DNA of 64,000 bases from Chlorobiota bacterium (GCA_028287785.1 JAQBOZ010000020.1:1-64000), one strand, 5' to 3'. Shown: positions 40,246 to 63,193, counted from the stretch's first letter. Program-made: numbers and translations. The notes: generated by a model not told the origin, from the letters alone.

Positions 40246-42726
40246 TTAGCGGATCACGATGAACCTGCTCGACGCCAGCATTGTCCCGCCGGCATCGGCC
40301 ACTCTGATAAAGTACTGTCCGCTCGTAAGATCGCCAATGCGGAGCACATCGAGCCGATCCCCCTTTTCCACCTTGCCGGTCTCCGAGCGAAGCACGGTCT
40401 GCCCGCCGACATTGGCGACGCTCACCACCAGCTCATCCCCCTCCAACTGCGGCGCGTGAACCGTAAACCAGAGCTCGCCAACCGACCGGCTGACGATGTT
40501 GGCCTCCAGCTTGATCTGCGCGGCCGGCTTCACCTCGATCTTATCCTGCTTCGTCGGCACATACGCCGTCGCAACCGATGGAAGCGTTGCCGTCACCGCC
40601 TGGAACTTGCCGGCATCCTGCGCTATCTGCCGGTCCGGGCTCACGAACGTAGCCAACCGACCATCGGCCTTGATCGCCGCGGAAGGCGCCGAGATGCTCT
40701 TCACCCAGGCATCGGCGGGAGTTGCGACCTCGTAGTAGCTGGAGACCGCGCCGCGCGTCAGCATCAGCCCATCCTCGCCATCATTGCGGGGGACGATCAC
40801 GTAGATCGCCAGCGGATGGCCGTTTGCCACGGTGGTGCCGCCGCTGAGCTGCGTTCCCCCGGCCGCAACCGCGTAGCCGTTCCCCTGAAGCGATTTATCG
40901 GTGAAGGACTCATAGGCCGCGATGCGAACCGGCATCGAACGGATCAGCGACATCTGATCCTCGGTGAGATCCTTCCCCTCCAGCTCGAACGCCGAGATCT
41001 GCATCATCCTGGCAGCGACATTCTCGATATCCTGCAACTTCATCTCGATCTTCCTGTTCACCAGACGCTCCACGCGCCCTTCGCTCAACCCGCTCCTGAT
41101 ATAGGCCGCCAGCGAAGCCACACGACTCCATGCCTCCGGGTTCGGCTCAACGTACCCATCGGTCTTCAACTCGCTGTTCCCGCGGCTCACCCCGGTCACT
41201 TTTGCGACGGGGCTCAGATCCATCCGCGTGGGAATGCTTTTATAATCCGCCCAGGCGCCCATCGCCGAGGTCAGCTCCCGGTTACGCCAGTCATCGCTAC
41301 GCATGAAGCGGGGATATCCGTTGGTCCGCTCCTGCTCCAGCGCCAGCGGCTGAATCGCGTAAAGAAGCGAACTCTCCAGCGTCTGCACCCACGATTCGGA
41401 GGGTCGCGAGGCAAGCACCGGCCTATCCCCCTCGATGCCGCGGACGGCATCGGCGCGACCGCTTCCCATCGCCGCCATCAGGCTGAGCCCATAGCCACCC
41501 CGCGAAGGATGCGAATCCTTCCAGGCGAGATCGGCGGAGCCGGACTGCGGGGTCACATCGAAGAGACGAAACGCGGGAAGCCCGTTCCGGTCGGCGGAGG
41601 AAGGAAGCTGCTCTTCCAGATATTCCGCGAACCCCGCGAGCAACTGATCATCGTTGAGAAAGGCGGGGCCGTTGGAGACGATACGTCCGTAATAGCCACG
41701 AGCTGCATTGTTGAGGATATCCCACTGGGAGCTTCCCTCGGCGCCGCTGAAAAAGGCGGCGGGCTCGGTGATATTCCGGAGACTCTGATTGAAACCATCC
41801 TGATCGCCTATCCCGCTTACCGCGCGCGCCAGAATGGTGGCGGCGCGAAGTCCGGCCAGATCCGCCCGTCCCTCGGCGTTGCGGACATTGAAGCCGGTAC
41901 GACCAAGCCACGTCTTCGCGCGATAGTAGCTGGCGAGCTTCGCGTCGAGCGCGTAATAGCCCGTCGGCGCGAACTGCGAATAATCGATCGATTCACCGCG
42001 GAGAACCGAGGAGTTTGCCACGCCGGAAGCGGCGGTGATCTTCCGCACTTCCTCTTTCACCGCCGACTGCACCCGCGGGTCGATCGGAGCAGCGGGATCG
42101 AGAAGGGCCTGGGCGGTCTGAACATATCCAAGCACCCGGACAACCGCATCGTTCAGCGCGGGGCCGCGCGAGCTGGATGGCTGGCCGGCAACGCTCTGTG
42201 CAAGCTGGGCCATTTCGGCGCCAAGCACTGTCACATCGTAGTTCCGCTCCATATCGCGCGTCGCCTCATCGATGGTGACGCGAAGGCCATGAAGCATGGC
42301 ATCCACGGTGATGAAGCTGCCGATCTCCTGCGAGCTCAGCTCCGGGGCATAGGCCTGACCGAAACTCCCGACTGCTTCCGGACGCGCCATAAACGCATCC
42401 TTGAGAAGCATCGCGCGCTCATCACTGGAGAAATAGCTATTCCACGGGAAACTCCCCTGAGCCACGGCGACATTGGAGAATCCCGGTGCAATCTGACGCT
42501 CGGTCAACCCCACTTCAGCCCGATATTTCGGCACCTGATAGGGACGATAGACGCCAAAACCGCTGGAAACGGGAACTTCAATCCGCGCCATGGGAACCGG
42601 CTGATCGATGGAGCTGGAGCTGGGGAGCGTTTTGCCCATGACATTGACATGGTCCGAAAACACCCCGCCCGCAAACAGCCCGACTGTAATCGCGCCGACA
42701 ATGATCGTTGGAACTGTGATTCGCAT
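40246..42726 (-). CDS. DUF3160 exported protein with C-terminal T9SS-type sorting domain
   Basis: An 826-residue protein with a signal peptide (MRITVPTIIVGAITVGLFAG). The long middle is all-helical DUF3160, for example FPWNSYFSSDERAMLLKDAF, SFITVDAMLHGLRVTIDEAT, TWLGRTGFNVRNAEGRADLA, SSLLYAIQPLALEQERTNGY and IYVIVPRNDGEDGLMLTRGA. The last 80 residues resemble a type A sorting domain (GDELVVSVANVGGQTVLRSE, SGQYFIRVADAGG, ending FIVIR), so the protein should be delivered to the surface by type IX secretion. AGGAGAG lies before the ATG. It is downstream of the first sigma/anti-sigma operon on the same strand but separated by a terminator. Confidence 0.87.
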   Translation of the reverse strand: MRITVPTIIVGAITVGLFAGGVFSDHVNVMGKTLPSSSSIDQPVPMARIEVPVSSGFGVYRPYQVPKYRAEVGLTERQIAPGFSNVAVAQGSFPWNSYFSSDERAMLLKDAFMARPEAVGSFGQAYAPELSSQEIGSFITVDAMLHGLRVTIDEATRDMERNYDVTVLGAEMAQLAQSVAGQPSSSRGPALNDAVVRVLGYVQTAQALLDPAAPIDPRVQSAVKEEVRKITAASGVANSSVLRGESIDYSQFAPTGYYALDAKLASYYRAKTWLGRTGFNVRNAEGRADLAGLRAATILARAVSGIGDQDGFNQSLRNITEPAAFFSGAEGSSQWDILNNAARGYYGRIVSNGPAFLNDDQLLAGFAEYLEEQLPSSADRNGLPAFRLFDVTPQSGSADLAWKDSHPSRGGYGLSLMAAMGSGRADAVRGIEGDRPVLASRPSESWVQTLESSLLYAIQPLALEQERTNGYPRFMRSDDWRNRELTSAMGAWADYKSIPTRMDLSPVAKVTGVSRGNSELKTDGYVEPNPEAWSRVASLAAYIRSGLSEGRVERLVNRKIEMKLQDIENVAARMMQISAFELEGKDLTEDQMSLIRSMPVRIAAYESFTDKSLQGNGYAVAAGGTQLSGGTTVANGHPLAIYVIVPRNDGEDGLMLTRGAVSSYYEVATPADAWVKSISAPSAAIKADGRLATFVSPDRQIAQDAGKFQAVTATLPSVATAYVPTKQDKIEVKPAAQIKLEANIVSRSVGELWFTVHAPQLEGDELVVSVANVGGQTVLRSETGKVEKGDRLDVLRIGDLTSGQYFIRVADAGGTMLASSRFIVIR

Positions 42727-42951: not shown

Positions 42952-42990
42952 CAAAAAAGAACGGCGGACACTCTTTCGAATGCCCGCCGT
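42952..42990 (-). terminator. Terminator of sigma/anti-sigma operon 1
   Basis: ACGGCGG/CCGCCGT stem, with a run of six T residues on the leftward transcript. It ends the operon whose last gene stops at 43130. The remaining gap 42727-43129 holds only this hairpin, a short GAGCGCGCTC palindrome at 42844 and the promoter space of the DUF3160 gene. Confidence 0.8.
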
Positions 42991-43129: not shown

Positions 43130-45025
43130 CTACCAGACGATCACCGCGCCGAGACCGATCCCGACATCCAGCCCGCCAGTATCGGCCGGAACGGTCGTCC
43201 GCTGGTGCAGCTCGCTGGCGTTCTGGGATGTCTGCACGGTGCTCATGGAGACATCCGCCGCCGTGGCGCGGGTATCAACGTACCGGATCGTCGGCGTCAA
43301 CTCCAGCCTGATCCATCGGGATGGACGGAAGGTGATCGGGGCTTCCACGCCGGCGCTGAGATGCCGACCGCCAACTCCGCCCCAGACGCCCGGGCTTACG
43401 CCGATCTTCTGACTGAGCGCAATGGTATACCGATAGCCCGCGCCTCCGTATATCTCGCTCGCGGTTCCCGACGTGATATCCGCCCTTCGCGTCGATGGGG
43501 TCGTGATGCCGTTGACGGTAGTCCCCACCAGGCTGTCGGCGATCGTATTGCGATACCCGCTCAACCCCGCCACGGCGTAGATCTGATGCCGCCCGCCAAG
43601 CTCCACCCCGGCCCGGAACGCGCCATCGAGATTGACCTGACCGGATCTGAGGCTGATATAGCTGGCCGGCGTGATGGAGACGATAAACGTGACCGCCGGC
43701 GAACCCGACGATGCCGGGAGGGATTGATCGGTACTGGAGGCGGAAGCCAGGTTGGGAGCCCCCAGCGCGCTGTTGAACTGCCCCGAGTTGACGGCCGCGC
43801 TTATGGGCGAAAGGGCCTGCGCGACCGGGCTCGATGATGGAACATTTTGCGCGATATCGATATCTCCCTGCGAATCCGATGGACGGTTTCGGAGAGCGGA
43901 GGCAATCGTATCGGCAATGGCAAAATCCATCGACAGGGAGAGGAACGAGGAAGCGGGCGTATTCGCCTTCGTCACGGAATTGGAAACCTGCTGCATCTGC
44001 TCGGTTCGCGGGCCGGAGCCCAGCGCATGCCCATCCCCCAGCATTGGGGCCGACGGAGGAGGAGCAAGAGCGCTCGCTGATTTCATGGGAGGACTCTGCG
44101 CCAGCGCGATATCCTTGTTCTTCCCCATCGTCTGCGTCGGCGTGGTGTGAAAGGCAAAGGAAGTGTCCCGATAGGCAGCAATGCCCCCCGACTGATAGCC
44201 CCCCATCTGCCGGCTCATAAGCTTTGGAGCCTCCTTGAAGGAACGATCATCATCAGACTTGAGATCACGATCGAGCCTGCGCGCATCCGAGGCATGCTCC
44301 GCATCGGGAGATAACTGGTTGCCCAGATCCCCCCCCCTGGCTTCCCCCCAGCTCCCTTCCAACGTACCGGAGCCCTTTGCGGACTTCCTGTACACGATAT
44401 CATCCGATGCCATCAGGTGAGTCTCCCCCTTCGGAACGCTCTTCGAGGCACGCTCACCGCCATCGATCCGAACCGGCTCCTTCACGGAACCGGAAATATC
44501 CTTGCTCTCCGCCTTCCCCGTTACAGGCGGGGATGGCGATGAGAAGGTTCCTGTATTTGATGATGTGGTCTTCTCCGGCGCCGCCTGCGGCCGGGCATCG
44601 GTAAACACCGGTGATCTCATCCCGGCCGGCTTATCCTCCTCTCCGTTCCAGACGATCGCAACCGCGAGAAGCGCGGTGATAAACGGGATCAGCCAGATCG
44701 CGGCACGGCGACGGCGGCGTCCGTCGCGGACGGCGGGAGAGGGAATCGAACGGGCAGCCGCGGCAACCACCGGAGGCGATGCGGGAATCTCCTCAAGGGG
44801 CTTCATCCCCTCCTCGCGCTGAAGGCGACCGAAGAGGGCGGACCGCAGTTCCGGCGCGGGGGTCTGAAGCACCCGCTGGTCCCGCGCCACGGCCCGCAGA
44901 GCGATCTGCGCGCGGAAGAGCTTGCGCGCCTCCGGCGACACCGCCAGGCGATGATGCAGCTCCGCCTCGGCCTCGCTCGAAAGGTTGCCGTCGATGTATT
45001 GCGATATAAGGTCTTCGATATTCAT
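43130..45025 (-). CDS. Trans-envelope anti-sigma factor with C-terminal outer-membrane barrel, module 1
   Basis: About 631 residues with four parts. Residues 1-75 are a helical anti-sigma domain (DLISQYIDGNLSSEAEAELH, HRLAVSPEARKLF); the usual HxxxCxxC zinc site is absent. Residues about 105-128 are a basic stop (RRRRR) and one membrane helix (AAIWLIPFITALLAVAIVW). Residues about 130-440 are a Pro/Ser/Ala/Gly-rich linker with no fold signs, long enough to cross the periplasm. Residues about 445-632 are beta-barrel-like (VTFIVSITPASYISLRSG, HQIYAVAGLSGYRNT, GGAGYRYTIALS, RWIRLELTPTIRYV), ending GLGAVIVW with a terminal aromatic residue. It would hold the ECF sigma factor encoded upstream at the inner membrane while its barrel sits in the outer membrane. 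The frame begins with a GTG; the next codon, ATG at 45025, is taken. Confidence 0.75.
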   Translation of the reverse strand: MNIEDLISQYIDGNLSSEAEAELHHRLAVSPEARKLFRAQIALRAVARDQRVLQTPAPELRSALFGRLQREEGMKPLEEIPASPPVVAAAARSIPSPAVRDGRRRRRAAIWLIPFITALLAVAIVWNGEEDKPAGMRSPVFTDARPQAAPEKTTSSNTGTFSSPSPPVTGKAESKDISGSVKEPVRIDGGERASKSVPKGETHLMASDDIVYRKSAKGSGTLEGSWGEARGGDLGNQLSPDAEHASDARRLDRDLKSDDDRSFKEAPKLMSRQMGGYQSGGIAAYRDTSFAFHTTPTQTMGKNKDIALAQSPPMKSASALAPPPSAPMLGDGHALGSGPRTEQMQQVSNSVTKANTPASSFLSLSMDFAIADTIASALRNRPSDSQGDIDIAQNVPSSSPVAQALSPISAAVNSGQFNSALGAPNLASASSTDQSLPASSGSPAVTFIVSITPASYISLRSGQVNLDGAFRAGVELGGRHQIYAVAGLSGYRNTIADSLVGTTVNGITTPSTRRADITSGTASEIYGGAGYRYTIALSQKIGVSPGVWGGVGGRHLSAGVEAPITFRPSRWIRLELTPTIRYVDTRATAADVSMSTVQTSQNASELHQRTTVPADTGGLDVGIGLGAVIVW

Positions 45026-45106
45026 CACTGCTTACTCAACTGAATCGGACCGTGCATATGACTCATCACCATCGCCCCCCGGCTCCGCACCGGCATATCG
45101 GTGCGC

Positions 45107-45544
45107 TCACATCTTCGCGAATGAGAGGATATGGTTTCCATCTCCATAGTAGATCAGAAGGATCCTGCCATCACTCCAGTATCGAACGGACTTGGCGAGC
45201 GCGTCGAGATATTCATCCTCGGTAGCTATCGCGTCGCAACTCATCTTGGTGCGGAACATCGGCCCGGTAACGCTCAGCAGGGAATCATGGATCTGGTAGG
45301 GTCCGCCATAGCTGTTGCATCCTCCCCTGCCACCGAGCCGCGCGGAATCGGTGAGCAGCAGCGTGACTGTCGCGGTCGCGGGGACCGGCTTTTCCTCGCC
45401 GGAGATCGTCGAGAACGATCGCAGCTTCCAGGTGATGCCGGTGATATGGCTCACCGATGCCCCGGCGATCGGGTTGACGGAGGGTTTCTGGCATGCGCTC
45501 CAGACCACAGCAAGCAGTAACGTAAGAGATAGCGTTATTCTCAT
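45107..45544 (-). CDS. META-domain (HslJ-like) lipoprotein
   Basis: About 145 residues. It starts MRITLSLTLLLAVVWSAC, a lipoprotein signal with Cys18. The single META domain follows: ITGITWKLRSF, VTLLLTDSARLGGRGGCNSY, SLLSVTGPMFRTKMSCDA and EDEYLDALAKSVRYW. META proteins such as HslJ are envelope stress proteins, and the GGCNSY and MSC motifs may form a disulfide. It lies between the sigma and anti-sigma genes of operon 1, which suggests a role in sensing or a regulated product. An upstream start 14 codons earlier is less likely, as it buries the signal. Confidence 0.88.
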   Translation of the reverse strand: MRITLSLTLLLAVVWSACQKPSVNPIAGASVSHITGITWKLRSFSTISGEEKPVPATATVTLLLTDSARLGGRGGCNSYGGPYQIHDSLLSVTGPMFRTKMSCDAIATEDEYLDALAKSVRYWSDGRILLIYYGDGNHILSFAKM

Positions 45545-45590
45545 CCTCGCTCGCGACCATTTGTTCGATAGATTCCTTCCCGCCATGATC

Positions 45591-46250
45591 TCATCCCTCC
45601 GTTCCCAGAAATTTCTCCAGTGCCTTTCTCAGCGCCCTGCGCGCCCTGCTGATCCGCATCCGGGCCGCCTCCTGGGTGCAGCCGACCGTCGCGGCAACCT
45701 CTTCATATTCCAGGCCGTTGACCTCTCGGAGAACGTACACCTCCCGCAGCGATTGCGGCAGCAGCTCCACGCACGCCTGGAACCTGGCAAAGAGCGCCTC
45801 CCCCGTCAACTCATCCTCCTCGCCGAACAGCTTGGCAAACGATTCCTCGATCGGCACCATCAGCCGCTCGTCCCACCGATGGCTCTCCTCGTCCGAGATG
45901 GAGAGGGTCTGCCGCACGGTTCGCAGGTGGCTTATCGCCAGGTTGTGCGCCACTCTGAAAAGCCATCCCTTCAGGTTCTGAATTGTCCTGTATTCCTCTC
46001 CCCGCTCCTTCGACGCGGCATATCTGGACCGCTCGCGGAAAAGACGGACAAACGTCTCCTGAAACAGGTCATCGGCCACCTCCGGGGAATCCTTGACGAT
46101 GGTGCGCAGATAGGTAAGGACGCTCTTCTCGTACCGCTCGTAGAGGCTCACGAACGCTCGTTCATCGCCGAGCAGGAATCGTTCAAGAAGCGATTCATCC
46201 CCTTCGGCAACCGCCGTCCCGGCTCCGTTATGTCCCCTGTGTTCAGCCAC
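45591..46250 (-). CDS. ECF-type sigma factor, module 1
   Basis: A 219-residue sigma-70 family factor of the extracytoplasmic-function group. Region 2 reads FVSLYERYEKSVLTYLRTIV, DDLFQETFVRLFRE and LKGWLFRVAHNLAISHLR; region 4 reads LPQSLREVYVLREVNGLEYE, VAATVGCTQEAARMRISRAR. It should direct RNA polymerase to envelope-related promoters when released by the barrel-linked anti-sigma factor encoded two genes downstream. The start codon is GTG at 46250. A promoter-like motif lies 32 bases upstream. Confidence 0.93.
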   Translation of the reverse strand: MAEHRGHNGAGTAVAEGDESLLERFLLGDERAFVSLYERYEKSVLTYLRTIVKDSPEVADDLFQETFVRLFRERSRYAASKERGEEYRTIQNLKGWLFRVAHNLAISHLRTVRQTLSISDEESHRWDERLMVPIEESFAKLFGEEDELTGEALFARFQACVELLPQSLREVYVLREVNGLEYEEVAATVGCTQEAARMRISRARRALRKALEKFLGTEG

Positions 46251-46281
46251 GCAGAAAGTATTGATTGACCGTTATACGCTT

Positions 46282-46308
46282 TATGACGTCGCCCCTGGGC
46301 GATGTAAC
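46282..46308 (-). promoter_or_regulatory. Candidate autoregulatory ECF promoter, module 1
   Basis: Leftward GTTAC at 46308-46304, a 15-base spacer, then CGTCATA at 46288-46282; the end of the motif is 32 bases from the sigma start codon. The same arrangement occurs before the second sigma gene. Visual match only. Confidence 0.4.
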
Positions 46309-59268: not shown

Positions 59269-59880
59269 TCATGGCTGCAACTGGAGCCTGAACACTCCGC
59301 GATCCACCTGTATAACCGTATCGGCCTCGGTGCTGTATCCCGTAAATGCGAATGTGCCAACCAGCACGCCACGTTCACGATCGATCCTGGCGATATGAAG
59401 CACGCCACTGGAACGGTTCACCCCCGTCTGAAACAGCTCGGGAAACCCGCCCATCTTGCGGGAATAGGATGCGCCGTATCGTGGGGCTTCGTTGGAATCG
59501 ATTCCCTTGGGGGCTGAGTAGGCGGCATTGATGGCGTAGGTTCCGGTATCCCTTACATTATCCATCCTGAGCGACATCACCTCGTAATCCTGTCCCGCCA
59601 GTCCGTATCGGGTGGCCTGCACGGTAAAGTAGTATCCGGCGTTGCGAACCCCGTTGTGGAATGCAGGGCGAAGCACCTCGGTGGCGAACACAACCTGCTC
59701 TCCGTGAACCTGCGCGGAGATGGAATCCCCCGGCGCGCCGATGAACCCGGCCGTGGTGATCACCGAATCGATATTGACCAGGGTGACACGGCGATACGTA
59801 TCAACGTCGAGGGGGCTGCGGCATGCGCCAGCGGCCCCCACAATGAGAAAGAGTGCAATGATGATGGCATTTCTCGTCAT
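59269..59880 (-). CDS. Envelope lipoprotein, module 2
   Basis: A 203-residue protein starting MTRNAIIIALFLIVGAAGAC, a lipoprotein leader with Cys20. The mature part (RRVTLVNIDSVITTAGFIGA, EQVVFATEVLRPAFHNGVRN, YEVMSLRMDNVRDTGTYAIN) is rich in beta structure; no domain is recognised. It starts 43 bases after the stop of the second anti-sigma gene, so it belongs to that operon. Module 1 also encodes a lipoprotein, though an unrelated one. Confidence 0.72.
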   Translation of the reverse strand: MTRNAIIIALFLIVGAAGACRSPLDVDTYRRVTLVNIDSVITTAGFIGAPGDSISAQVHGEQVVFATEVLRPAFHNGVRNAGYYFTVQATRYGLAGQDYEVMSLRMDNVRDTGTYAINAAYSAPKGIDSNEAPRYGASYSRKMGGFPELFQTGVNRSSGVLHIARIDRERGVLVGTFAFTGYSTEADTVIQVDRGVFRLQLQP

Positions 59881-59923
59881 GCGATCAATCCTGCTCCTGA
59901 TGCGATACGGTGAGGCTCCGTGA

Positions 59924-61237
59924 TCAGAACCACAGAGCAAATCCCCCGTGAACATTCAGATTGGTGCTTGTAATCGTCTGACCACGGAACTGCGACCAGA
60001 GGAACCACGAAGAGAGCCCGATATCGCCGGAGAAACCATCAGCCACCCGAAACTCGGCGTCCACGCCAAGCGTTGCAAACGGGCCGATCGATGTTCCGCC
60101 GCCACCGAATTCCACGGATGTCCCAAAGATCTCCGAGCTTATAAGCTGCGATGATACGAATCCTCGCCCATATAAGAACGTCGGCGATTGCTCGATGATC
60201 GTATCCAGAGCGGCGCCGCCGGTGTTGGTGTGAAGCACCTGCGAGAACTGCGTGCCGCCGAACGCCGCCCCGAACCGGAGCGGTGAGCGCAATCCAAACA
60301 GCCCGCCGTCGAAGCTCCCCATGATCTCGCGATCGGTCAGCGTGTTCGACTGCGCCGGAACGCCGTAGATATGCGGCAGCGAGAGGCGGAAATTATTTCG
60401 TATCCCAACCATCCATCCCTTTCGGTCATCCCCCGTATGGAGGGCATCCATCGGGTTGACGGTGTTCCCGGAGGAGAGCCGGGAGATGGGAGCCGGCGCG
60501 GTGGTCACGCTCGCCGGCATCCGCGTGGCAAATGCCCTGGGAAGAACCATCGTAACCGATGGGGCGGAGAGCGCGGGAACCGTCGCGACGGGAAGTGTCG
60601 CGGCGGCATCCGGCGTGGAACGATCGGCACGATGCGGAGCCGACAGGGCCGCGAGCGATGGGGTGGCTCCGGCGCGACTCTTCAGCCGTGAGATCTCGCC
60701 GAGCAGACGACCGTTCGTCGAGGCAAGGGTTGCGTATCGGGAGCGCGTATCAACCAGAGAATCGCGGAGGAGAGTGATCTCCTCCGGCGATTCCCCGGCA
60801 AATCGCGTTTCTCCTGGTTGACGCGATATCACTACCGTATCGACCTTCCGCGCGGCAATGGCGGAGGCGGGAACGGTCTTTCCACTTACCAGATAACCGA
60901 CGGCGGTTCCAAGCCCGATCAGAAGGACCCCCGCAAGCGCGGCGAAGCCCGGCCGCTGCCAGAACCCGAGCGACGGGGACGGAGGAACGGGAGTCGGCGG
61001 GGGAACCGGCGTCACGGCATCGACCGCGCCGATCCCGGCCCAGATGGCGGCATCGGCGCTCCGCGAGGGAGCCAGCCCGGCACCGAGCGTGCCGAAGGAG
61101 CGCCCCATCTTCACCTGCTCCATCAGCAGCAGCCGCTTTTCGGGGGCCACAGCCAGCACATGAAGCAGTTCAGCGACCTGCGTCTCATCATGGAGCTCGC
61201 CGTCGAGAAGCGCGGTTATCTGTTCGTGGATATTCAT
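59924..61237 (-). CDS. Trans-envelope anti-sigma factor with C-terminal outer-membrane barrel, module 2
   Basis: A 437-residue protein with the same layout as the gene at 43130 but very different sequence. Residues 1-50 are the anti-sigma domain (QITALLDGELHDETQVAELL, HVLAVAPEKRLLL), again without zinc-binding cysteines; LAVxPExR is shared with module 1. A Pro-rich stretch (VPPPTPVPPSP) is followed by one membrane helix at 98-117 (FAALAGVLLIGLGTAVGYLV). Residues about 150-187 can form a coiled coil (EEITLLRDSLVDTRSRYATL), then comes an Ala/Pro/Ser-rich linker. From about 273 a barrel follows (GWMVGIRNNFRLSLPHIYG, LRFGAAFGGTQFSQV, SSQLISSEIFGTSVEFGGG, FATLGVDAEFRVADGFSGDI), ending GGFALWF. The sigma gene lies 94 bases upstream. 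Confidence 0.78.
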   Translation of the reverse strand: MNIHEQITALLDGELHDETQVAELLHVLAVAPEKRLLLMEQVKMGRSFGTLGAGLAPSRSADAAIWAGIGAVDAVTPVPPPTPVPPSPSLGFWQRPGFAALAGVLLIGLGTAVGYLVSGKTVPASAIAARKVDTVVISRQPGETRFAGESPEEITLLRDSLVDTRSRYATLASTNGRLLGEISRLKSRAGATPSLAALSAPHRADRSTPDAAATLPVATVPALSAPSVTMVLPRAFATRMPASVTTAPAPISRLSSGNTVNPMDALHTGDDRKGWMVGIRNNFRLSLPHIYGVPAQSNTLTDREIMGSFDGGLFGLRSPLRFGAAFGGTQFSQVLHTNTGGAALDTIIEQSPTFLYGRGFVSSQLISSEIFGTSVEFGGGGTSIGPFATLGVDAEFRVADGFSGDIGLSSWFLWSQFRGQTITSTNLNVHGGFALWF

Positions 61238-61331
61238 AGCGATTCAGAAGTTCGAAAATCCTGCAACGTTCATCATTGCGATACGGGGACTGATCAGAGC
61301 CGCCCATTATCATCAGCATCAATCGAAGGCA

Positions 61332-61865
61332 TCACATCGAGTCATCGCGGAGCAAGGGGCGAAGAATTTTCTGGAGCGCCTGTTTAGCGCGATAAATCCG
61401 GTTCTTTACGATATCGTGCGTCACGTTAAGCTGTTTGGCTATCTCATCATAGCTGTACCCCTCGAACTCGCAGAGGAGAAAAGCCTCGCGGTAGTTGGGG
61501 TTGATCGCGGCAAGCGCGTTCCTGAGATGGACGTTGGTATCGGCCGTGGCCGGGTCCACCTCATAGGCGCGTTCCGGCACATTCTCCAGCGAAACGTGGC
61601 GATTGCTGGTACGGAGCACATTCAGGCAGCGGGTACGGGCGGCGGTCAGGAGATATCCCCGGACATTGTGCATCACCTGGCCGGCCCGGCATGCCCGGTA
61701 GAAGTTGATGAACACTTCCTGATAAACATCCTCGGCGACGGCCTCGTCGCTGAGCATCAGAAGACAGAACCGGTAGATCCCCGCCTTGTAGCGTTCGAAC
61801 AGAAGGCTGAACGCGGCATGATCCCCGGCGCTGACACGTTCGGCGAGCGCCTGATCTTCAATCAT
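61332..61865 (-). CDS. ECF-type sigma factor, module 2
   Basis: A 177-residue ECF sigma factor. Region 2 is AFSLLFERYKAGIYRFCLLM, AEDVYQEVFINFYRACRAG and VRGYLLTAARTRCLNVLR; region 4 is NPNYREAFLLCEFEGYSYDE, IAKQLNVTHDIVKNRIYRAK. It is only distantly related to the module 1 factor. I chose the ATG at 61865, just before DQALAERVSAGDHAAF; open frame continues upstream but is not sigma-like. A promoter-like motif again lies 32 bases before the start. Confidence 0.93.
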   Translation of the reverse strand: MIEDQALAERVSAGDHAAFSLLFERYKAGIYRFCLLMLSDEAVAEDVYQEVFINFYRACRAGQVMHNVRGYLLTAARTRCLNVLRTSNRHVSLENVPERAYEVDPATADTNVHLRNALAAINPNYREAFLLCEFEGYSYDEIAKQLNVTHDIVKNRIYRAKQALQKILRPLLRDDSM

Positions 61866-61896
61866 CCGAGGGTTAGCAATAGCAACCAACGTTTCA

Positions 61897-61922
61897 CCGT
61901 ACGATCGTAAGAAGGGAGTAAC
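61897..61922 (-). promoter_or_regulatory. Candidate autoregulatory ECF promoter, module 2
   Basis: Leftward GTTAC at 61922-61918, a 14-base spacer, then CGTACGG at 61903-61897; the end is 32 bases from the sigma start codon, the same distance as in module 1. Visual match only. Confidence 0.4.
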
Positions 61923-63193
61923 CCAGGAAGAACAACGTTCGGAGGGAAAGTTCTCACACCGAAAAGATATGATGCGCGGAAGAATGCGGAATGGTGAAAG
62001 CGTGGAATGATGGCGGGGGTACAAAAAGCTCAATCGGCGGCGCATTCCCATTCGAAAGGAGATACGCCACCGACTTGAGCGTTACACGAGCGCAGTTTCC
62101 CACTGACGAAACGACCTGCTACCGGCCAAGGACCCAAAGATTCCGCCCTGGATGTGGGACAGCGCTCAGAAGATAAGGCATTCCCAGCCTGTACGCCGGA
62201 ATGGACCTCGAACCCTATCCTCAGTGTTCGTGCAAGAAGAATGCGTACCCTGAAAGCTGCTGAATTGGACCCCAACGCTGACTGGGTCGCCTTTCTCCGG
62301 ACCGATTATAAGGGCACCATGCTTATGTGGGGAGCAACCAATTTCTACGCAGGGAAGTTATTTGCTCCTGATCGGGTTCCACCAAGCGGTGCCCTAACGG
62401 CAGGATGCTCCCGGCGTGAGCCGGAAGGACCTCACACCCTGCCAGTTCGTACATTTTTCAAATAACCGTTGATGTCAGCGCCCAGGCAGCGGACCGAAGG
62501 ATCCCCTGGCGAATGCCCGGGACAACCCTGGCGATCCGCTGCCTGTAGGAAGCGCATCCATGAACGACAGCCACCGTACTGCCTGCGATGATGCCATCCC
62601 TAGATGCGTTTCGATATGTCAAACACCTTCCAGCACGCTACCGACAAGGGACACAGTGTAGTTTCGGTCAGAATCGCGCGACCCCTCAATCACGCGTTAC
62701 GTCCTGCAATCATGATGAACATGATATGCTTACACCCTATCCTTCCTGTTTCCGCTCGTTGAGCTGAAACAGCTCGGTCATCGTTCCCGGACCGGAAGTG
62801 GCAGACGAATTCCACTCCCCTGGTGCCTGGCGCTGACCCCTCTGGCAAGCTTTCTTACATGCTCCTCAACATTCTCCGCCCCATAAGAAACCGCCATGGT
62901 TTTCAACTGCGTCGCCCCACTCTCCCACCATCCCCTCTGCTTTCAGGCGCCGCTCGAGTCAATCACGTGCCCAATCCTGTCTTCGATCGATTCCGGACCT
63001 TCATGGAATCGTGATCGTTTCGGTTTCGGGCTGATCTCCTCCTGATTCCTCCGGATATTCTGGACAAATGTCCGGCTGAATTCCTTAGAAGAGATGCGCT
63101 TCGTGATACAGTTGCAAAGCTAGCCTATCCAAGTGCCCTCGTCAACTACACATTTGTGTAGTTTCTCCCTTTTGGAGGCAACTTTCTTCAGAT
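61923..63193. other. 1.3 kb without a convincing gene; two structured inverted repeats
   Basis: Open frames here (for example a rightward 103-codon frame at 62154-62465) have neither family resemblance nor ribosome sites, so I do not call genes. Two structures stand out. At 62399-62443 an outer GGCAGG/CCTGCC stem encloses CCGGC-gtga-GCCGG. At 62483-62545 an 11-base perfect stem (CAGGCAGCGGA paired with TCCGCTGCCTG) encloses CTGGCG/CCCTGGCG-like inner repeats. They could be a non-coding RNA, a pair of terminators or the ends of a decayed element. An ACTACACATTTGTGTAGT palindrome at about 63146-63163 is probably the terminator of the leftward gene ending at 63194. Confidence 0.5.

Follow-up and report, generated by a model that had tools for sequence, protein, structure and literature searches.

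Outer-membrane beta-barrels are known to signal to extracytoplasmic-function (ECF) sigma factors by way of anti-sigma factors, as in the FecA-FecR-FecI and SusC-type systems. In the Dma proteins of gut Bacteroides, the anti-sigma factor itself reaches the outer membrane: they are defined by an anti-sigma domain and a transmembrane (TM) helix that a disordered tether joins to a C-terminal barrel, and their genes adjoin those of ECF21 sigma factors; Dma represses its sigma factor, and its loss alters the production of outer-membrane vesicles (PMC13088901). In this report, we analysed by computation a window of 64,000 nucleotides from the 4.75-Mb genome of a Chlorobiota bacterium. We consider it probable that one operon therein encodes an ECF sigma factor, a META lipoprotein and an anti-sigma factor reaching through both membranes, and that this last protein works like Dma while constituting a different class. 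A search of the literature for such a layout in Chlorobi/Ignavibacteria yielded nothing relevant.

The operon and the hairpin that follows it comprise these features:

45591–46250, minus strand: ECF sigma factor gene (219 aa), the first gene of the operon
45107–45586, minus strand: META-domain gene (159 aa), a probable lipoprotein
43130–45028, minus strand: anti-sigma-barrel gene, a single open frame of 632 codons
42961–42990, minus strand: intrinsic terminator-like hairpin (13-bp stem and T-run), 3' of the anti-sigma gene

The first gene product matches sigma-70 region 2 (Sigma70_r2, E = 3.3e-11) and region 4 (Sigma70_r4_2, E = 5.2e-12) in Pfam, and in a sigma-factor tree it groups with the sigma factors of four orthologous operons (L021–L024). 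The second scores 58.1 bits against PF03724 (E = 1e-15), where the Pfam cut-off is 24, and is thus a META-domain protein. The original prediction, which placed an ECF sigma gene upstream and a META gene between it and the anti-sigma gene, is therefore borne out by Pfam. Four nucleotides separate the sigma stop from the META start, and about 80 separate the META stop from the ATG of the anti-sigma gene. The META protein begins with a signal-peptide-like segment ending in VWSAC. This lipobox is non-standard, but lipidation is nonetheless likely, given that segment and the clear lipoboxes of related META proteins. The anti-sigma frame opens with GTG-ATG; homologues begin at the ATG (45025), the probable start of a 631-residue protein that has full-length, one-frame homologues in many genomes. 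Our terminator scan would return 2.5 such sites in the region by chance, but the hairpin at 42961–42990 has a longer stem and lies just beyond the end of the operon. The next gene past it (40246–42726, minus strand) encodes a DUF3160 protein with a weak match to a type IX sorting tail; this neighbour is also kept in a same-genus relative (L021).

The anti-sigma protein is predicted to have four parts:

44801–45025, minus strand: predicted cytoplasmic anti-sigma domain (residues 1–75), four helices, Cys-less
44648–44710, minus strand: inner-membrane helix (residues 106–126), directly after RRRRR
43706–44647, minus strand: periplasmic tether (residues 127–440), predicted to be disordered, 36% Pro/Ser/Ala
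43133–43705, minus strand: C-terminal outer-membrane beta-barrel (residues 441–631) of about eight strands, ending in Trp

An AlphaFold2 model of the full protein, built on a shallow alignment of 35 homologues, places helices at residues 3–12, 17–29, 31–53 and 58–72, with pLDDT values of 94–97 for residues 1–40 and 60–79 for residues 41–80. The only strongly hydrophobic stretch of the protein (Kyte-Doolittle 2.39) directly follows RRRRR and is modeled as helices 106–111 and 113–126 (pLDDT about 52–67). Residues 128–440 are unstructured, with pLDDT mostly below 50, which gives a tether of about 313 residues. The strands that follow (446–630) reach pLDDT 80–97, and the barrel modeled alone from 34 sequences has a pLDDT of 90.8 and a pTM of 0.79. 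For both models, the top Foldseek matches are outer-membrane proteins (OpcA, OmpT, NspA, OmpA, Ail and OmpX); TM-scores normalized by target are 0.58–0.67 for OpcA, OmpT and NspA but moderate overall (0.3–0.67), and the strand pattern is partly irregular. The barrel matches no Pfam or NCBIfam model, and a sequence search of the PDB gave nothing significant, RseA appearing at E = 0.17. Thus, the RRRRR motif with its single inner-membrane helix, the Pro/Ser/Ala-rich linker put at some 310 residues and the barrel-like C-terminus ending in Trp, all read earlier from the sequence, agree with the hydropathy profile, the models and the comparison with outer-membrane barrels. A predicted structure lacking the barrel, named at the outset as grounds for refutation, was not obtained.

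Taken alone, the window protein matches zf-HC2 only below threshold (E = 0.05, Pfam). Across the 35-member family, however, zf-HC2 is matched by 12 members (best E = 9.1e-5) and RseA_N by six (best E = 1.9e-4). Further, hhalign relates the N-domain of the family to the N-domains of barrel-less anti-sigma factors, which we collected from this genome and others of the phylum as the proteins whose genes directly follow that of an ECF sigma factor, with a probability of 99.1% (E = 1e-18). The HxxxCxxC zinc-ligand motif is absent from all 35 members, and the window protein has no Cys throughout its length. Because of the profile match, the zf-HC2 and RseA_N matches of the family and the adjoining sigma gene, there is a strong case by homology that the predicted N-domain is of the RseA/zf-HC2 type without the zinc ligands. 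The earlier description of a Cys-less domain of zinc-finger type was apt.

Modules of this layout recur in the genome. Of 37 neighborhoods of ECF-like sigma ORFs, about nine continue with a long anti-sigma factor having a TM helix and a barrel-like C-terminus (two in the window, plus L025, L026, L099, L100, L102, L106 and L110), a census drawn from profile matches, from hydropathy and from the sequence of the C-terminus, with AlphaFold2 modeling confined to the first module of the window. The second module in the window (59269–62051) consists of three genes:

61332–62051, minus strand: ECF sigma factor gene, with sigma family matches
59924–61237, minus strand: anti-sigma factor (437 aa) with a TM helix and a barrel-like C-terminus ending in LWF, matching the family profile over its full length (E = 2e-74)
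59269–59955, minus strand: lipoprotein gene (lipobox GAC; DUF6252, PF19765, E = 3.2e-7), overlapping the end of the anti-sigma gene

Farther along the same contig, beyond the window (about 70.6–71.9 kb; L103:3567-4888), an ECF sigma gene is followed by that of a 191-residue anti-sigma factor having a TM helix and no barrel; barrel-bearing and barrel-less anti-sigma factors thus lie within 30 kb of each other. Profile matches occur in 45 of 99 genomes of the class, this genome having 16 scored matches with barrel-less relatives counted in. Many of the homologues in the class are full-length (about 390–750 aa) and in one frame without internal stops. Outside the class, matches to this profile in the phylum are mostly short anti-sigma factors of about 185–250 aa. 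A profile search with five close sequences led to five named loci; the nearest named relatives are metagenome-assembled genomes labeled Bacteroidetes, Chlorobiota, Ignavibacteria and, in one case, Armatimonadetes.

A probable lipoprotein is encoded beside the anti-sigma factor in seven of the nine barrel operons of this genome. Clear lipoboxes are found in the partners from the second window module, L026, L100, L102, L106 (two) and L110, and the partner in the first module is the META protein. A lipoprotein gene of the L106 operon (L106:7366-8370) carries a long run of RDSLIxRDT-type repeats, possibly forming a coiled or extended rod. The genome has two META-domain genes, both in anti-sigma-barrel operons: the one in the window and, in L100, that of a triple-META lipoprotein downstream of the anti-sigma gene. 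META lipoproteins also lie downstream of barrel anti-sigma factors in L189 and L190. In three genomes of the same family, a META protein is encoded divergently beside an ECF sigma gene, and a short anti-sigma factor is recognizable in two of them. Two META lipoproteins that are divergent to an ECF sigma gene (L187:2969-4498 and L188:3378-4979) have apparent propeller repeats of the TolB/WD40 type (SPDGK). Among the operons examined, a search for the order sigma, META, anti-sigma-barrel found it here only, while META lipoproteins recur near such modules. The view in the original prediction that the interposed META gene is new is supported, but it missed that none of the four nearest orthologous operons (L021–L024) has a META gene between sigma and anti-sigma; a search for a remnant at that position in the same-genus relative (L021) found none. 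Most likely, the META lipoprotein is an envelope partner or a product of the response.

We propose that the four-helix cytoplasmic domain holds the sigma factor and that the single helix anchors the anti-sigma factor in the inner membrane, from which the disordered tether would cross the periplasm to the small outer-membrane barrel. The state of the barrel, whether bound by a ligand at the surface, engaged with a partner lipoprotein or left unassembled when BAM fails, would expose the tether to periplasmic proteolysis, whereupon an RseP-type protease would free the sigma factor to transcribe its own operon and envelope genes. Binding of the sigma factor, insertion into two membranes, the signal and the release are inferred; sequence and prediction provide the gene order, the domains, the tether and the barrel. 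We favor a first cut in the tether and then one of the RseP type, because a disordered tether would convey conformation poorly. The genome encodes RseP-type (three M50 matches) and DegP/DegS-type (four Trypsin_2 matches) proteases, a matter of presence that does not imply their action here. Given these and the long disordered tether, release by proteolysis is no less likely than release without a protease, and the same facts leave the earlier claim that no separate sensor or protease cascade partner would be needed unsupported as worded.

Another possibility is that the barrel is a sentinel of assembly and not a ligand sensor, such that failure of BAM would let the C-terminal aromatic signal trigger a DegS-like protease and the anti-sigma factor would report outer-membrane assembly stress. 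The RseA/DegS pathway of E. coli is a known precedent. An aromatic final residue, typical of that signal, is present in 28 of 35 aligned relatives, DegP/S-type proteases are encoded, and proteolytic control suits a disordered tether. However, this one genome has about nine barrels, diverse and paired with different lipoproteins, which suggests different inputs rather than one shared stress. We regard the sentinel role as possible but doubtful.

A rival to the preferred reading, a two-membrane anti-sigma factor that responds to its barrel, is that the protein is simply a divergent member of the Dma family. We recovered Dma loci by way of DUF4943, the family of the BT_1557 neighbor, which led to operons L183 and L184. 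Their genes follow the order described for dma2: sigma factor, Dma2-like protein, DUF4943 protein, another secreted protein and one that resembles the BT_1555-type enzyme in sequence. In all, we recovered 25 proteins of the Dma1/2 type and four of the sigma-fused Dma3 type. The latter (L215, L218, L221 and L222; 564–573 aa) start with a sigma domain and carry a barrel of the Dma type, which fits the description of Dma3 as sigma and anti-sigma factor in one chain.

Common ancestry of the window protein and Dma1/2/3 along the entire chain would accord with the identical four-part layout (PMC13088901), the shared phylum and the barrels, whose profiles match at 87.5% (E = 3.6e-6), a figure to which general barrel features may contribute. 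Against the barrel profile of the window family, standalone frames of this genome that resemble outer-membrane proteins score 0.05–2.8% and single Dma barrels 0.4–58%. The two kinds of barrel may thus be distantly related, but homology is only suggested, since some of the control frames may be wrongly picked. The other comparisons tell against such ancestry. The N-domain of the window family shows no detectable relation to the 25 Dma1/2-type proteins (hhalign, 0.3%), though a very remote one could escape profile tools, whereas the same method links it to canonical anti-sigma factors at 99.1%; the Dma N-region scores 0.07% against the canonical domains. The TM helix starts near residue 100 in the window family, some 50 residues later than in Dma (about residue 50), and the window-family profile finds no Dma2 protein at E = 1. 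Of the 30 Dma-locus sigma factors placed in the sigma tree, 29 form one clade (100/99) that holds no sigma factor of the window's class; the thirtieth, encoded on the other strand from its dma gene, is probably unrelated. Judged by position relative to this Das-type clade rather than by ECF group models, the window sigma factor lies outside. On the N-domain and the sigma factor we reject membership in Dma over the full length, the barrel excepted, and we consider the protein unlikely to be a plain divergent Dma. Because its anti-sigma domain and sigma factor are unlike those of Dma/Das, it probably belongs to a class of its own. The Dma analogy first drawn thus stands as to the layout, the known principle and the new lineage, but it overlooked the different anti-sigma domain and sigma factor.

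The same-genus orthologue (L021, 749 codons) has the barrel, with recJ-yebC-sigma before and the DUF3160 gene after, as in the window, and the same-family orthologue (L022, 599 aa) has it as well. Two orthologues of a sister genus (L023:3991-5718 and L024:4453-6156) retain the N-domain, the TM helix and a periplasmic part of more than 400 residues, ending in a short non-barrel segment. In the tree, the sigma factors of these two fall within the group whose anti-sigma orthologues bear barrels, which makes loss or replacement of the barrel the most likely history. Since the two do without it, sensing through a barrel would not be essential for every member. Conceivably, constitutive cleavage of the tether yields an inner-membrane anti-sigma factor of the ordinary kind and a free outer-membrane barrel. 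Such processing would be in keeping with these two barrel-less orthologues and with tethers that vary from 89 to 405 residues, but the one-frame fusion is retained across many genomes. Further, tether length has a floor, near 89 residues in the window family and near 98 in Dma, which would fit the need to cross the periplasm. We thus judge constitutive cutting quite improbable. A frameshift or assembly error fusing two genes near the compositionally simple linker is ruled out, since independent genomes, dozens of them within the class, carry the same continuous layout in one frame (the same-genus and same-family orthologues and dozens of paralogues have it) and third-position GC is high in every segment of the frame (0.68–0.79); the single frame first proposed holds, and the frameshift named at the outset as its undoing was not found.

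The description of Dma presents a single class linked to ECF21 sigma factors (PMC13088901). That a different anti-sigma domain supports the same two-membrane layout suggests that fusion of an anti-sigma factor to an outer-membrane barrel arose more than once, and therefore direct signaling from the surface to RNA polymerase may be commoner than thought. The principle is already known; the findings support the novelty of the lineage and of the interposed META gene. With about nine paralogues, several sigma lineages, recurrent lipoproteins and barrel-less orthologues, these modules form a natural comparison set for how the state of the outer membrane is passed along a disordered tether so that a sigma factor is released.

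The protein shares with Dma an N-terminal anti-sigma region, one TM helix, a long disordered tether and a C-terminal barrel, together with an adjoining ECF sigma factor and further envelope-protein genes in the operon. It differs in an anti-sigma domain about twice as long and not detectably homologous, in its barrel (OMP_b-brl matches 25 of 25 Dma barrels but, weakly, one of 35 in the window family) and in copy number, with about nine in this genome against three in B. theta. Single-pass anti-sigma factors of the RseA/zf-HC2 type likewise combine an N-terminal anti-sigma domain with one TM helix, but the window protein is without zinc-binding Cys, and its periplasmic part is a long tether with an outer-membrane barrel. 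The META protein has the PF03724 domain in an envelope protein, as do HslJ-like lipoproteins, but its gene sits between sigma and anti-sigma, unlike those in the other operons examined. Finally, from general knowledge, the FecA-FecR-FecI and SusC-type systems also pass a signal from a barrel to an ECF sigma factor through an anti-sigma factor, but their barrel is a separate TonB-dependent transporter, whereas here a small barrel and the anti-sigma factor make up one chain.
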